In this document: positions 18,563 through 28,199 of the stretch, in pieces
Layout: every line of letters begins with the position of its first letter
How positions within the stretch are numbered: position 1 is the stretch's first letter
From: an uncultured Rhizobiaceae bacterium
GTDB taxonomy: Bacteria; Pseudomonadota; Alphaproteobacteria; Rhizobiales; Rhizobiaceae
NCBI GenBank assembly: GCA_951813045.1
Contig: CATOTF010000002.1
Location: 2,852,001-2,916,000, forward strand
DNA length: 64,000 nt
Direction of reading: 5' to 3'
Notes under the pieces: model-generated
What the model saw: only the letters and a program-made list of their open reading frames with translations
What the model was told of the DNA's origin: nothing
The model's database searches: none
Translations under genes and position numbers: made by a program

Positions 18563-19330
18563 ATGACAAATGACCTGTTCGACCTGAGCCAAAAAACTGT
18601 TTTGATCACCGGGTCGTCCCAGGGAATTGGGTTTGCCCTTGCAAAAGGAATGGCGCAGGCGGGCGCATCCATTATTCTCAACGGGCGCGATGTGGCAAAA
18701 CTTGCAAGTGCTGCAAAAGAGCTTGAAGCCGGTGGTGCAACAGTATTCCAGCTCCCGTTTGACGCAATTGATCACGCTACTGTTAAGGCGGCGGTTGACG
18801 GACATGAAGCGGACAATGGCTCCATCGACATACTGGTTAATAATGCGGGTATGCAGTTCAGAACCGCGTTGGAAGATTATCCGGCAGACATGTTCGCCAA
18901 ACTGCTTGAAACTAATATCACCACAGTATTCAACGTCGGCCAGGCAGTTGCAAAACACATGATCGCGCGGGGCGAAGGTAAGATCATCAACATTGCATCG
19001 GTGCAAACTGCCCTCGCCCGCCCGGGCATCGCGCCGTATACGGCAACGAAAGGCGCGGTAAGCAATCTGACCAAGGGCATGGCAACAGATTGGGCCCAAC
19101 ACGGGTTGCAATGTAATGCGATTGCGCCGGGCTATTTCGATACGCCTCTTAATGCGGCTCTAGTCGCGGACCCTGAATTTTCCGCATGGCTTGAAAAACG
19201 CACCCCTGCCGGTCGCTGGGGCAACGTTGATGAATTGGTCGGTGCCTGTGTGTTCCTGGGTTCAAAGGCTTCCAGTTTCGTCAACGGGCACACGCTTTAT
19301 GTCGACGGCGGCATCACCGCCAGCCTGTAG
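18563..19330 (+). CDS. idnO: SDR family oxidoreductase, gluconate 5-dehydrogenase-like
   Basis: TGSSQGIGFALAKGMAQAGA, YTATKGAVSNLTKGMA; next to gluconokinase and idonate dehydrogenase. Confidence 0.8.
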   Translation: MTNDLFDLSQKTVLITGSSQGIGFALAKGMAQAGASIILNGRDVAKLASAAKELEAGGATVFQLPFDAIDHATVKAAVDGHEADNGSIDILVNNAGMQFRTALEDYPADMFAKLLETNITTVFNVGQAVAKHMIARGEGKIINIASVQTALARPGIAPYTATKGAVSNLTKGMATDWAQHGLQCNAIAPGYFDTPLNAALVADPEFSAWLEKRTPAGRWGNVDELVGACVFLGSKASSFVNGHTLYVDGGITASL

Positions 19331-19339
19331 GCTGATCTG

Positions 19340-19852
19340 GTGCCTAGAACTCCTCATCGATTACATGTTATCATGGGCGTTGCCGGGTGCGGCAAATCCA
19401 CAATCGGCAATGCAATCGCAGCAAAACTGGACGGCACATATCTGGAAGGTGATCAATTTCACCCTTCGACGAATATCGAGAAAATGAGCGCCGGTGTTCC
19501 CCTGACTGATGGGGATCGATGGCCATGGCTTAAGATTGTGTCGCAAGAAATGGCGGGAACTGATGGTATCGTCTTTACCGGCTGCTCCGCCCTCAAACGG
19601 GCCTATCGCGATTATATCACAGAGCAGGCAAATGAACCCGTGCTCTTCATTCATCTCAACGGGTCAAAAGAACTGATTACTTCTCGCATGGGCAAACGGG
19701 AAGGGCATTTCATGCCGGATAGTCTGATAGAGAGTCAGTTTGAAGCGCTGGAACCACCGGGCACCGATGAGATCTCTTTGACGGTGGATATCTCCGGTAC
19801 CGAAGAAGACATCGTCCAGTCCATATTAAACGACCTCAACAGATTGGGCTAA
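19340..19852 (+). CDS. gluconokinase
   Basis: HVIMGVAGCGKSTIGNAIAAKLDGTYLEGDQFHPSTNIEKMSAGVPLTDGDRWPWL; GTG start. Confidence 0.92.
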   Translation: MPRTPHRLHVIMGVAGCGKSTIGNAIAAKLDGTYLEGDQFHPSTNIEKMSAGVPLTDGDRWPWLKIVSQEMAGTDGIVFTGCSALKRAYRDYITEQANEPVLFIHLNGSKELITSRMGKREGHFMPDSLIESQFEALEPPGTDEISLTVDISGTEEDIVQSILNDLNRLG

Positions 19853-19880
19853 AGCCCATACCCACCCTTTAGGAAGCACA

Positions 19881-20912
19881 ATGCGCGCCATCGTCATTCA
19901 CAAAGCCAAAGACCTCCGAATTGAGGAAGTTAAAAGCGAGACCCCCAAGCCCGGAGAGGTTCAAATTCGGCTCGCGACCGGTGGTATTTGCGGGTCCGAT
20001 CTGCATTATTATAACCACGGTGGTTTTGGTCCCATACGCCTCAAACAGCCGATGATGCTCGGCCATGAAGTTTCTGGCTATGTTGAAGCACTGGGCGAAG
20101 GCGTGTCCAACCTTCAAATAGGCGGCCTCGTGGCGGTGTCTCCTTCCCGCCCTTGCGGAGGTTGCAAATATTGCGAGGAAGGCCTGTTCAACCATTGTGA
20201 AAACATGCGTTTCTACGGTTCAGCCATGCCCTTCCCCCACGTTCAGGGCGCCTTCAGCGAATATCTCGTTGCAGACGCAAGCCAATGCGTGAAAGCCGAT
20301 GGATTGACCGCAGGTGAAGCCGCCATGGCAGAACCCTTGTCCGTCACGCTACACGCAGCACGGCGCGCCGGTAACCTGTCCGGCAAACGGGTTTTAATCA
20401 CCGGGTCCGGCCCCATCGGAACACTGTGCGTTCTGGCGGCGAGATCAGCCGGTGCAGCTGAAATAATCGTCACGGACCTTGTGGACCCAGCACTTGAATT
20501 CGCCCGAAAAATTGGGGCCGATAAAACCATCAACATCGCCGATAACCCAGTTGCACTCGAACCCTACCAGACAGGCAAGGGAGAAATCGACGTTCTGTTT
20601 GAGTGTTCCGGTGCGGCCCCCGCATTGGCATCGGGCATCACTGCCATGCGCCCCCGTGGCATCGTCATGCAATTAGGCCTGGGTGGCGATATGTCCATTC
20701 CCATGCAAGCATTGACCGCTAAAGAACTAGATTTGCGCGGTTCATTCCGCTTTCACGAAGAATTCTCTGAAGCCGTTGGCCTCATGCAACGGGGGGTGAT
20801 AGACGTAAAACCACTCATTTCCCACACCGTAACTCTGGATGACACGATCAACGGGTTTGAACTCGCCAATGACCGAAATCAGGCAATGAAGACGCAGATC
20901 AAGTTTTCCTGA
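19881..20912 (+). CDS. idnD: L-idonate 5-dehydrogenase (zinc MDR family)
   Basis: GGICGSDLHYYNHGGFGPIRLKQPMMLGHEVSGYV; CGGCKYCEEGLFNHCENMRFYGSAMPFPHVQGAF. Confidence 0.88.
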   Translation: MRAIVIHKAKDLRIEEVKSETPKPGEVQIRLATGGICGSDLHYYNHGGFGPIRLKQPMMLGHEVSGYVEALGEGVSNLQIGGLVAVSPSRPCGGCKYCEEGLFNHCENMRFYGSAMPFPHVQGAFSEYLVADASQCVKADGLTAGEAAMAEPLSVTLHAARRAGNLSGKRVLITGSGPIGTLCVLAARSAGAAEIIVTDLVDPALEFARKIGADKTINIADNPVALEPYQTGKGEIDVLFECSGAAPALASGITAMRPRGIVMQLGLGGDMSIPMQALTAKELDLRGSFRFHEEFSEAVGLMQRGVIDVKPLISHTVTLDDTINGFELANDRNQAMKTQIKFS

Positions 20913-20999: not shown

Positions 21000-22217
21000 A
21001 TGAACTGGCCGTCCAACACACCATCCGCACTCTCCTCTGACCAGATCGTTGGTCTCAACAGGGAATTCGCGGAACTGGATGAAAAACTCGGTTTCGAAGT
21101 GTCGAACAATTTCACCCAGTTCGACCAGATGAACGACATGTTCACCCGCGCTTTTTGGGATGAAACAATCCGCTCGAATGACACGGATGGTTTCTTCAAT
21201 TCATACAGAATGGAATTCGCTCCCCGTCGCGGCGACGGGTTTACCCAGAAAGATTTTGCCTTGCGTAATGCCGCCTGGTCCATTTCTGACATCATATCAA
21301 ACCGAGGCAACGACGTTGGAAAACGTGAAGGGTTTCAGTCGCCAATTGAATATGACACGCCTGTGGCGCCGGAAAAACATGACATTGAAAATCCAGCGGT
21401 CGAAACTGCAGAGATAAAGAAAATAGCAAAACTATTTGGCGCCGATCTAGTCGGCATCTGCGAAATTGACCCACGCTGGCATTATTCAAACCGGGTCGAC
21501 ACGCGGGATTTCACACCTGCACCAAACGAATTGCCGGAAGGCATGACCCACGTCATTGTCATGGGGCACGCGATGGATAAAGACCTGGTGGATACATATC
21601 CCTGTGCTTTAGCCGGCGCCTCCACCGGGTTGGAGTATTCCCACGAAGCAGCGATCTGCATCCAGCTTTCAACCTATATCCGCAACTTGGGTTATGAAGC
21701 CGTAGCGTCCATGAACGACACTGCTTTGGTCATCCCCTACGCCATCAAGGCGGGACTGGGAGAATATGGTCGAAACCAGATGGTTTTAACCCCAGAATTT
21801 GGCCCGCGGGTGCGTTTTTCCAAAATCTTCACCAACATACCGCTGATCGCGAACGAACCCAAGCCATTGGGCATCAGGCAATATTGCGAAATCTGCACAA
21901 AATGCGCCACCGCCTGCCCGCCAAAAGCCCTGCCGTTTGGTGAGCCAACCGTTGAAGCGGAAAATCAATCCACAATCGGCAACGTGAAAAAATGGTCAGC
22001 CAATTGCGAAAAATGTTTCGGCTATTGGGCCAAGCTAAAAACCGACTGTGCCATCTGCATGCGAGTGTGCCCGTTCAACCGGGGCGATAGCTGGAAGGAG
22101 CAGGTCTGGTACAGATTGGCCACAACCCCCAAATGGCGAAAACTCGCCCACTGGATAGACCAAAAAATGGGCATTCCTGCCCGGCTAAAACCGAAGGAAT
22201 GGTGGGCTATCTGGTGA
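21000..22217 (+). CDS. reductive dehalogenase-like 4Fe-4S / corrinoid protein (cytoplasmic, no TAT leader)
   Basis: YEAVASMNDTALVIPYAIKAGLGEYGRNQMVLTPEFGPRVRFSKIFTNIPL; CEICTKCATACPPKALPFG; CEKCFGYWAKLKTDCAICMRVCPFNRGDSW match RdhA arrangement. Confidence 0.8.
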   Translation: MNWPSNTPSALSSDQIVGLNREFAELDEKLGFEVSNNFTQFDQMNDMFTRAFWDETIRSNDTDGFFNSYRMEFAPRRGDGFTQKDFALRNAAWSISDIISNRGNDVGKREGFQSPIEYDTPVAPEKHDIENPAVETAEIKKIAKLFGADLVGICEIDPRWHYSNRVDTRDFTPAPNELPEGMTHVIVMGHAMDKDLVDTYPCALAGASTGLEYSHEAAICIQLSTYIRNLGYEAVASMNDTALVIPYAIKAGLGEYGRNQMVLTPEFGPRVRFSKIFTNIPLIANEPKPLGIRQYCEICTKCATACPPKALPFGEPTVEAENQSTIGNVKKWSANCEKCFGYWAKLKTDCAICMRVCPFNRGDSWKEQVWYRLATTPKWRKLAHWIDQKMGIPARLKPKEWWAIW

Positions 22218-22385
22218 TAACCTAGAACCGTCTACAACTGCAAAATTGCTTCAAGAACTAGAGGAGTGGTCCGATCATCTCCAATCGAACCCGGAAGTTA
22301 TTCAGAAGCTTCGTGCACTTGAAGCAGACGTAACAAGCAGTGATACGCCCACGATTTCTCGTCCTCGGTCTCCAAGGCCGTCACG

Positions 22386-23936
22386 ATGAAACAGGAATTC
22401 CGGACAGCAATTGGAAAATCAGCAGATAAGCCACGCGCGCAATCCGATGTAGATGGAATTTCTAAGGGCAAGAAAAGTGGTCGTTCGCTATCCCCTGTCA
22501 CCTTGACGCTACGCGCGGCCATCGACGAGGTGATGAACTCAAAGGAGTTGGTGCAACTTACTAAACCCGGTACACCGGATTACACCACCCGTTCCTACAA
22601 GCGCTCAGAAGGTACCCTGCTTGTTGCTGCTTCTGCTATGCAGAAGTGCGTCGGTTTTGGTGTGAGTTCAAGGCATATCAATTGGGCGGTTCGTAAACAG
22701 AACACCGTCATGCAAAAAGCCTTTGGAGGTGAATTGAGTGAAGAACAAAAAACTGCGCTCCATTCTGCCCTTGGTAACAGCCAGTTTGCAAACATAGTCG
22801 GCGTCGCGGGAGCTGGTAAAAGCACCGTGCTCAATGCGGCGCGTATGGCTTGGGAGAATCAAGGCACAACCGTTCATGGCGCTGCACTTGCGGGAATTGC
22901 GGTAGATGGATTGCAAGCGTCTTCGGGTATTGAAAGCCGGACATTGGCCTCTCTGGAAATCAGTTGGGAGAATGGTAATCAACCGATTAAGAAGGGCGAT
23001 GTATTGGTGATTGATGAAGCTGGCATGATTGGCACACGACAATTATCCCGTATCGTCACCAAAATAAATGAAATCGGTGCGAAGCTTGTTTTGGTTGGTG
23101 ATCCTGATCAATTGCAGCCGATTGATGCGGGGCAACCCTTTCGTCATCTCATTGACCGGTTCGGTGCGACGCGCCTGAATCAAATTCATCGTCAGAAATC
23201 AGACTGGCAAAAACAAGCATCGTGCGATTTATCTCAAGGCCAAATTGAAAAGGCCGTGTCTGCCTATCAGGAAAATGGTTCTGTTCATGTGGACAGAAAT
23301 AAAGACGGCGTTTTGTCGGCACTTGTTGAATCCTATCTGGCAGACATGGAAAACGCGTCCGATGCTTCCCGCCTTGCTTTCGCCCACCGCCGTAAGGATG
23401 TCTACGATATCAATCAGGCGATACGGGCTGCACTACGCCGTTCGATGGCTGCACCCAATGAGGAATATCTAATCAAGACAGATACCGGGCCACGCGTCTT
23501 TGCTGTCGGTGACCGGATTGTTCTAACCCGCAACAACAAAGCACTTGGCGTTAAAAACGGAATGCTTGGCACGATCACAGAAATGGATCACGGCAAAGTT
23601 CAGCTTGTACTGGATGGGAACAAACAAACCCGCGTAACGTTTAACCCAAACCATTATCGCACTTTTGACCATGGCTATGCCGTCACCATTCACAAGTCCC
23701 AAGGTGCAACCGTTGACCGCGGCTTTGTCTTTGCCAGCAAAAGACTTGATCCATCGCTGACCTATGTCGCCATGACACGTCACCGCGAAAAGCTAAATGT
23801 CTTTGTCAACAATAAGGATAAACCCGAGATCTGGGGCTTTGATCTCAAACACAGCACCATCAAACCGGAACCAGTAAAACGTCAGATCCTGCTGTATGAT
23901 TTCGAACATTGGCCCAAGCCAGAATATTCGCGGTAG
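22386..23936 (+). pseudogene. truncated Ti-type conjugative relaxase TraA (RecD-like helicase portion)
   Basis: VGVAGAGKSTVLNAARMAWENQG, LVIDEAGMIGTRQL, LVGDPDQLQPIDAGQPFR, HGYAVTIHKSQGATVDRGFV; N-terminal relaxase and C-terminal regions absent. Confidence 0.75.
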
Positions 23937-25991: not shown

Positions 25992-26918
25992 ATGACCATT
26001 CAGACATTGCCCCGGACGCCGACTTCCACAACGCCGCTTCGTGCCCGCATGATTTCGGATATGAAAGGGCGCAATCTGGGTAAGGCATCGCAGACCAGTC
26101 ACCTGCGCGCCTGCAAGCGTTTTGCAGCCTGGCTCAATCGTTCTCCCGACACGGCAACACCCGATGATGTGAAGCACTTTCAGGAATATCTGATCGAGAG
26201 TGGCGCGAGCATTTGCACGCGCAACCAGACCATGACCGGCGTAAAGTTTCTGTTCCGGGTGACGCTGCGGCGACACGATTTGGTGGCGGAGATATTCAGC
26301 CTCAAGGAGCCAGTAAAGGTGCCGCTGGTTCTCAGTAAGGAGGAAGTGAAGCGTATTCTGGCCATGGCACCGAGCCTGAAGGCGAAGGTGATGTTATCAC
26401 TGGCTTACGGTTGCGGGCTACGTGCAGGCGAAGTTGTTCGACTTAAAGTCGGCGATATAGACAGCGCCCAAAACATCATCCGCATTGTGCAGGCTAAGGG
26501 GCGCAAGGATCGCAACGTTATGTTGCCTTCCGATATTCTGGGCCTGCTGCGCGACTGGTGGAAAGAACGCCCAACCGGTCAGGATAAGAGTATCGCACGT
26601 GAAGACCGTTTGATATTTCCAGGATATAACGGAAAGCACCTTTCTTCCCGCCAGATCTCGCGATTGTTCAAGCAAGCAGCGCGGGCCGCCGGGATCACCA
26701 AGCCCGTTACATTGCACACGTTGCGGCATTCGTTTGCAACGCATTTGCTGGAGAGTGGTGTGGACATCCGGGTCATTCAGGCACTGCTGGGTCATACCAA
26801 GCTCACAACAACGGCGCGTTATGCAAGCGTTGCCACTGGAATGATTGCAGCTGTGGAAAGCCCATTGGATAATCTGAATGGGGTCAAACGCAAAAGGACC
26901 AAACGCAAGTCCTCATAA
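25992..26918 (+). CDS. site-specific tyrosine recombinase (XerD-like)
   Basis: LSLAYGCGLRAGEVVRLKVGDID, HTLRHSFATHLLESGVDIRVIQALLGHTKLTTTARY. Confidence 0.92.
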   Translation: MTIQTLPRTPTSTTPLRARMISDMKGRNLGKASQTSHLRACKRFAAWLNRSPDTATPDDVKHFQEYLIESGASICTRNQTMTGVKFLFRVTLRRHDLVAEIFSLKEPVKVPLVLSKEEVKRILAMAPSLKAKVMLSLAYGCGLRAGEVVRLKVGDIDSAQNIIRIVQAKGRKDRNVMLPSDILGLLRDWWKERPTGQDKSIAREDRLIFPGYNGKHLSSRQISRLFKQAARAAGITKPVTLHTLRHSFATHLLESGVDIRVIQALLGHTKLTTTARYASVATGMIAAVESPLDNLNGVKRKRTKRKSS

Positions 26919-26924
26919 TCTGCC

Positions 26925-28199
26925 TTGCCCCGTCCATCTTTTGGTCGCGGTCCTCGCATTCATCATCGCCGGGGCTCGTCCAACGCCTCTTGTCTGGAGG
27001 TTGCGGATATCTTCCGCGACCATGGTGCTGCGTGGCGCGCGGCTAATGCCGGGCGCATCAGCCTGAACCAATTGAAAGTGATGTCAGCGATTGAACGCTG
27101 CCGCACGGCCGCGCTCGGCGGTCATGTTACGCGTTGCGAAGACTGCACCCACGAGCACATCGCCTACAACTCATGCCGGAACAGACACTGTCCAAAATGC
27201 CAGGCGAGTGCTGCAAAGGCATGGCTGGTCGCACGAGAGGCCGAACTGTTGCCTGTGAGGTATTTCCATCTCGTCTTCACGTTGCCAAAGCCAATCGCTG
27301 ACATCGCGCGCCAAAACAAACCGGAGATCTACAATCTGCTGATGCGGATCAGTGCAGACACGGTGATCAAAATCGCCTCCGATCCAAAACATCTCGGTGC
27401 GCAAGTTGGCATCACCTCGGTACTGCACACATGGGGATCGGCGATGACGCACCACCCGCACGTCCACATGATCGTACCGGGCGGCGGACTATCACCGGAT
27501 CGGAGCGCATGGATAGCGAGCCGGAAGAACTTCTTCCTGTCCGTGCGTGTTCTGTCTCGCTTGTACCGGCGTCTCATTTTGGAAGAACTGGTCAGGTTGC
27601 ACAACGCCGGGAAGATGCGTTTCTTTGGCGATCACGCCCACCTTGTCAATAAGCCCGCCTTTGATGCTTTCCTCAAACCTTTGCGCAAAATCGAATGGGT
27701 CGTTTATGCCAAGGAGCCATTTGCCGGACCTAAAGCGGTGCTGGCATATCTGTCGCGCTATACCCACCGGGTTGCGATCTCAAATAGTCGCCTGATCCGT
27801 TTCGACGCAAATCATGTCACTTTCCGCGTCAAGGATTACCGCGTCGATGGTCCCCCGAACGCAAGGTGCAGACACAAAACCATGACCCTCAAGACCGATG
27901 AGTTCATTCGGCGGTTCCTGATCCATGTCCTGCCAAAAGGCCAGCATCGCATCCGCCATTACGGCTTCTTGGGAAACGGCAATCGAGCCAACAATATCAC
28001 CCTGATCAGGAACCTGCTCAAAGCCAAAGCGCCAGACACGGATCATGATAATGGCGATCCCGTCGAAGGTGCCGATGAACAACCCCGTGTTCTTGCATTG
28101 CCCTGCCCATGCTGCGGCGGACGATTGATCATCGGCAAGGCTTTCGCGCCTAAACAGCAACCAAGAGCACCACCAAAATCAAAGAAGACCGCCGCATGA
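26925..28199 (+). CDS. IS91 family transposase
   Basis: Zn-binding CEDCTHEHIAYNSCRNRHCPKCQ; FTLPKPIADIARQNK; HPHVHMIVPGGGLS; VLAYLSRYTHRVAISNSRL. Confidence 0.93.
   Translation: MPRPSFGRGPRIHHRRGSSNASCLEVADIFRDHGAAWRAANAGRISLNQLKVMSAIERCRTAALGGHVTRCEDCTHEHIAYNSCRNRHCPKCQASAAKAWLVAREAELLPVRYFHLVFTLPKPIADIARQNKPEIYNLLMRISADTVIKIASDPKHLGAQVGITSVLHTWGSAMTHHPHVHMIVPGGGLSPDRSAWIASRKNFFLSVRVLSRLYRRLILEELVRLHNAGKMRFFGDHAHLVNKPAFDAFLKPLRKIEWVVYAKEPFAGPKAVLAYLSRYTHRVAISNSRLIRFDANHVTFRVKDYRVDGPPNARCRHKTMTLKTDEFIRRFLIHVLPKGQHRIRHYGFLGNGNRANNITLIRNLLKAKAPDTDHDNGDPVEGADEQPRVLALPCPCCGGRLIIGKAFAPKQQPRAPPKSKKTAA

Follow-up and report, generated by a model that had tools for sequence, protein, structure and literature searches.

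A cytoplasmic, single-core reductive dehalogenase gene in a Rhizobiaceae genome, with halophenols as the probable substrate class

Reductive dehalogenases (RdhA) are classified by the domains they contain, and one clade recognised in earlier work consists of cytoplasmic RdhAs that lack a reductase domain (PMC10463259). The stretch of DNA analysed here, 64,000 nucleotides from an uncultured Rhizobiaceae bacterium (hereafter the window), contains an rdhA gene whose product seems to have neither an export leader, nor a membrane partner, nor a fused reductase. This raises the question of what such an enzyme acts on, and how it is supplied with electrons. The relevant features of the locus are as follows:

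18563..20912, + strand: idnO-like SDR gene, gluconokinase-like gntK and idnD, upstream of rdhA; congeners have them without rdhA
21000..22217, + strand: rdhA, 405 aa, ATG start; cytoplasmic, single-core, TAT-less, unfused reductive dehalogenase
22386..23936, + strand: debris of mobile DNA that follows rdhA, a TraA-type relaxase/helicase truncated to its helicase part
25992..28199, + strand: tyrosine recombinase, then a transposase-like ORF (IS91-like by eye), at the edge of accessory DNA

By ORF reading and translation, rdhA is intact and full-length, and it begins 87 bp after idnD in the same direction (idnD stop at 20912, rdhA start at 21000), as described earlier. A chance ORF at 21000-22217 is excluded by relatives at no fewer than 99 candidate loci in public (GTDB) genomes, 80 of which were kept, and by about 80 columns that are invariant across 49 aligned sequences. 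Inspection of the N-terminus (MNWPSNTPSALSSDQ...) found no RR motif, and the neighbouring ORFs include neither an rdhB nor a small membrane-protein ORF; the TAT leader and adjacent rdhB that mark respiratory RdhAs are both missing. The protein ends about 45 residues beyond the last cluster cysteine and therefore has no reductase domain, and a Pfam search of its 405 residues returned no Fer2 or NAD domain and no duplicated core, which sets it apart from the self-sufficient BhbA/JtRdhA type with its C-terminal reductase domain and doubled core. The first-pass annotation had proposed an RdhA-like protein without TAT leader, rdhB or fused reductase, and the ORF, its motifs, its N-terminus and its neighbours all bear this out.

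Family models, structure databases and fold searches converge on the same assignment. The protein scores 156.9 bits against the NCBIfam model TIGR02486 (RDH), 3.5 bits under the curated cut-off of 160.35, which several relatives exceed, and 24.4 against the Pfam dehalogenase model PF13486, just over its cut-off of 24.3. In a sequence search of the PDB, PceA (1.1e-47) and NpRdhA (8e-28) were recovered. An AlphaFold model computed with 49 sequences, from the window and the fetched loci, reached a pLDDT of 91.6 and a pTM of 0.91; in the fold search it matched most closely PceA as solved in the membrane complex 8q4h (E 2e-29, TMq 0.79), followed by Sulfurospirillum multivorans PceA, bromophenol complexes included (about 1e-22), and NpRdhA (about 1e-16). 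The match to PceA and NpRdhA predicts a cobalamin-binding fold, so that the protein would be expected to bind cobalamin. The lack of a cobalamin pocket had been named beforehand as evidence that would count against the assignment; the fold match and the conserved residues argue for such a pocket.

The active-site and cluster positions, by alignment with PceA and by motif, are:

21636..21638, + strand: codon of Tyr213, equivalent to PceA Tyr246, the proposed proton donor (PMC5500849)
21714..21716, + strand: codon of Asn239, equivalent to PceA Asn272
21813..21815, + strand: codon of Arg272, equivalent to PceA Arg305
21885..21920, + strand: first [4Fe-4S] motif CEICTKCATACP, CxxCxxCxxxCP, residues 296-307
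22014..22016, + strand: codon of Cys339, likely a further ligand in the second cluster set
22047..22073, + strand: CAICMRVCP, the second [4Fe-4S] motif, at residues 350-358; its offset of 54 residues from the first equals that in Ros_A3X954

In PceA, Tyr246, Asn272 and Arg305 are arranged around the corrinoid and the substrate (PMC5500849), and their counterparts Tyr213, Asn239 and Arg272 are invariant in all 77 relatives compared. The cysteines of both cluster motifs are likewise invariant in these relatives, with the exception of C336. The motifs CxxCxxCxxxCP and CAICMRVCP, as well as the conserved block AGLGEYGRNQMVLTPEFGPRVR, are present as first described, while one detail of that description needs revision: of C336 and C339, the likely ligand is C339, invariant in 77/77 and also in PceA, BhbA and QueG, whereas C336 varies (61/77). 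BhbA-type enzymes, including a fused RdhA encoded in this same genome, carry Asp and Lys at the positions of Asn239 and Arg272. They are cytoplasmic RdhAs of aerobic bacteria, as the window protein would be, yet they form a separate clade.

The PceA enzymes of S. multivorans and Desulfitobacterium (8q4h) are thus the best solved relatives by both sequence and fold. They have a single core, the same Tyr/Asn/Arg set and a Trp376 that aligns with Trp343 of the window protein. In contrast, they are TAT-exported and respire with a membrane partner, overall identity is about 30%, and where PceA has Tyr382, the window protein has Asp349, a residue shared by its whole family. NpRdhA of Nitratireductor pacificus is similar in other respects, being cytoplasmic and unfused, with B12 and two clusters, and by analogy its bromophenol-class substrates may be shared. 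Unlike the window protein, with its single core and no local partners, NpRdhA (about 700 aa) contains a second, vestigial copy of the corrinoid core, and genes for a ferredoxin/reductase lie close to its own.

The protein belongs to a single-core (PceA-like), TAT-less, unfused RdhA family that is common in marine Alphaproteobacteria and forms one well-supported clade apart from the fused enzymes. The deep joins to PceA, Dhc and QueG involve long branches and were left uninterpreted. The best relative among the GTDB loci is 76% identical over nearly the full length, and neighbours in the tree come from Rhizobiaceae, Paracoccaceae, Hellea and a bryozoan symbiont. In a Rhodobacteraceae-type sample, the family occurs in 55 of 397 roseobacter-type genomes (about 14%). 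The novelty implied earlier finds no support in this comparison: unfused TAT-less RdhAs are an established class (NpRdhA, Ros_A3X954, A0A2T7UTL8), and the window gene is a real, correctly classed enzyme of a known family, not a lone oddity.

Widespread as this family is, only two of its members seem to have been assayed. Ros_A3X954 from Roseobacter sp. MED193, expressed in a paper of April 2026, has no TAT leader, converts 2,6-dibromophenol to 2-bromophenol and loses its activity in oxygen; its motifs are CDICTKCADACP at residues 283-294 and CAICMRVCP at 337-345 (PMC13101508). It is 72.2% identical to a Pararhodobacter enzyme acting on 2,4,6-triiodophenol (PMC13101508); A0A2T7UTL8 of Pararhodobacter aggregans (Ng and Silver) is active on this compound, as relayed in PMC13101508. 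Since Ros_A3X954 is oxygen-sensitive, the lack of a TAT leader gives no ground for assuming oxygen tolerance.

Both assayed enzymes resemble the window protein in being unfused and TAT-less, in their length of about 390-405 aa, in the relative position of PF13486, in the 54-residue spacing of the cluster motifs and in an identical second motif. The first motif is CEICTKCATACP in the window protein and CDICTKCADACP in Ros_A3X954; the motif type, spacing, length and absence of a TAT leader that characterise the Ros_A3X954 group are all present. Thirty roseobacter members were read, most of which carry CDICTKCADACP, many at exactly residue 283 with CAICMRVCP 54 residues on. These members serve as stand-ins for Ros_A3X954 in estimates of identity to the window protein, which range from about 56 to 65%. 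L053, which has the Ros motifs, lies in the same tree set as the window protein. The window protein, from a Rhizobiaceae-family host, falls on another branch than the Ros-motif roseobacter members, and its putative membership in the group is based on the identity and position of motifs. By homology to the assayed relatives, the substrate class is largely answered as ortho-bromo- and ortho-iodophenols, while at 56-65% identity a shift in substrate can occur. The substrate had initially been called unknown, which holds for the window protein itself and no longer for the class, given the activities on 2,6-dibromophenol and 2,4,6-triiodophenol (PMC13101508).

The interpretation that we consider quite likely is that rdhA encodes a cytoplasmic dehalogenase with a corrinoid and two [4Fe-4S] clusters, whose most likely activity is to take bromine or iodine off natural marine halophenols, with a preference for positions ortho to the hydroxyl, for catabolism or detoxification rather than respiration. 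Mechanistically, the proposal is that electrons come from a soluble, low-potential donor outside the protein, probably one of the host's ferredoxins, itself reduced by an NAD(P)H reductase whose gene lies elsewhere, and pass via the two clusters to cobalamin; Co(I) would then drive halide loss, with Tyr213 giving the proton and Asn239 and Arg272 lining the pocket. The host genome encodes CobN of aerobic cobalamin synthesis. On this interpretation, a Rhizobiaceae genus would join the marine alphaproteobacterial lineages able to strip halogens intracellularly.

No ferredoxin, flavodoxin or reductase gene adjoins rdhA in the window, and no conserved redox partner was seen beside the gene across about 80 loci. 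Away from rdhA, the host genome contains FNR-like reductases along with short frames that resemble ferredoxins (112 and 136 aa), and from these observations we infer a housekeeping ferredoxin route, in which the donor is probably a general ferredoxin. The first-pass annotation had left the donor open, a position that still stands, and which donor serves cytoplasmic RdhAs of the unfused type is a testable question. A free flavodoxin was rejected as donor, the only Flavodoxin_1 match of the genome (Pfam) lying inside a 1,098-aa frame.

Gene neighbourhoods across the family are variable. There is no universal neighbour among about 80 loci, and the adjoining genes change with lineage (zwf/pgl/pgi, kynU/tdo, penicillin amidase). 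Rhodobacterales loci display an HNH nuclease-rdhA-zwf-pgl-pgi synteny, in which a role of zwf-pgl-pgi as NADPH supply is unconvincing because the arrangement is lineage-specific. In one deep-branching group of the family, rdhA is followed directly by kynureninase in an apparent operon found at five metagenome-derived loci:

L061:5953-13143
L062:3267-10459
L067:4733-11936
L074:3-6982
L064:5908-12060

The order after rdhA is kynureninase, tryptophan 2,3-dioxygenase (in L061, L062, L067 and L074, absent in L064), crotonase, amidase and TPP-decarboxylase-like subunits; in L061, kynureninase scores 321 bits (cut-off 246) and tryptophan 2,3-dioxygenase 421 (cut-off 391). Dehalogenation of halogenated tryptophan metabolites is possible for this branch, and the literature searched contained no paper on an rdhA-kynU-tdo dehalogenation pathway. 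Separately, in the three Woeseiaceae members (L060, L068, L069), rdhA precedes penicillin-amidase-like, carboxylesterase, ornithine-cyclodeaminase-like and sodium-symporter genes, perhaps reflecting a role with amide-linked halogenated metabolites.

These arrangements allow a broader and more tentative proposal, which we regard as conceivable though somewhat doubtful: the family may be a general, standalone marine dehalogenase module that draws on the housekeeping ferredoxin pool and was recruited lineage by lineage to different halogenated metabolites, including those of the tryptophan/kynurenine branch with its rdhA-kynU-tdo operon. A narrower alternative concerns the window enzyme itself, whose natural substrate could be another halogenated aromatic, derived for example from bromotyrosine, bromotryptophan or bromoanthranilate, with bromophenol turnover being incidental. 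The kynureninase operon at five loci and the amidase and esterase genes of the three Woeseiaceae members speak for it, as does S. multivorans PceA, which respires PCE yet also turns over bromophenols (PMC5500849). The window protein, however, lies on a different branch from the kynureninase-operon members, and none of those genes flank it, which makes this alternative unlikely.

The preferred halophenol reading must also accommodate the surroundings of the gene, since the window neighbours of rdhA lend no support to halophenol catabolism at this locus. The short rdhA is present in three of the 15 genomes of the host genus, and the other two carry it elsewhere; it is therefore an accessory gene. 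Its position at the edge of accessory DNA, suggested from the outset, is confirmed by the truncated relaxase/helicase, tyrosine recombinase and transposase-like ORF that follow, and by congeners that have idnD without rdhA. The idnD-rdhA adjacency is specific to this genome, and the closest relatives have other neighbours. A functional link between rdhA and idnO-gntK-idnD was rejected on these grounds; as congeners carry the three genes without rdhA, they are probably functionally unrelated to it. Between rdhA and the relaxase/helicase fragment lie 168 bp, in which the sole same-strand ORF is a 47-aa, soluble-looking remnant. This remnant and the TraA-type helicase without a relaxase domain (22246-23936) are signs of a decayed conjugative element. 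Elsewhere in the same family, one genome contains a decayed short rdhA copy with several stops (G163:C267:4619-5799).

It could be argued from the adjoining relaxase/helicase fragment and recombinase/transposase pair, together with the presence in only three of 15 congeners, that the gene is a formerly respiratory rdhA that has lost leader and anchor and survives as a vestigial passenger on mobile DNA. This is very improbable, as the ORF is full-length, all active-site residues are invariant, and a leader is likewise missing from the relatives, which occur in many genomic settings and are conserved as proteins; the loss or absence of the leader is therefore old.

QueG, like the window protein, has a corrinoid-dependent fold with double clusters, and Asp240 of the window protein aligns with an Asp in QueG, Asp134, whose catalytic role is named in the title of structure 5t8y. 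That the window protein is QueG or another non-dehalogenating corrinoid reductase is nevertheless scarcely credible and was rejected, given that every QueG score is far lower than its RdhA counterpart (TIGR00276, 53.5 bits with a cut-off of 200, against 156.9 for RDH; PDB search, 1.3e-9; fold search, about 1e-7 and TMq 0.38), that QueG has Val and Tyr in place of Asn239 and Arg272, and that the genome has a gene of its own for a true QueG, at a separate site (447.5 bits). The initial choice of RdhA over QueG, for which a better QueG score was to be the counter-evidence, accordingly agrees with family models, PDB and fold searches and active-site residues alike.

The second RdhA of this genome, outside the window (L135:9198-12413), is a fused BhbA/JtRdhA-type protein of 1,071 aa, which scores 205 bits with TIGR02486, has a reductase-like C-terminus with Fer2, and adjoins an FMN-dependent hydroxyacid dehydrogenase and a TPP enzyme. 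Most congeners possess a fused RdhA. Among 200 sampled genomes of the host's family, a fused one occurs in eight of the ten with the short gene and in 15 of the 190 others (Fisher p 3.5e-7, from a hand count uncorrected for relatedness), a co-occurrence that makes a division of labour worth testing. The same family also harbours RdhA-like proteins of about 330 aa (L110, L111, L114, L125 and L098), a further distinct class with a shorter N-terminal region and a separate clade in the tree.
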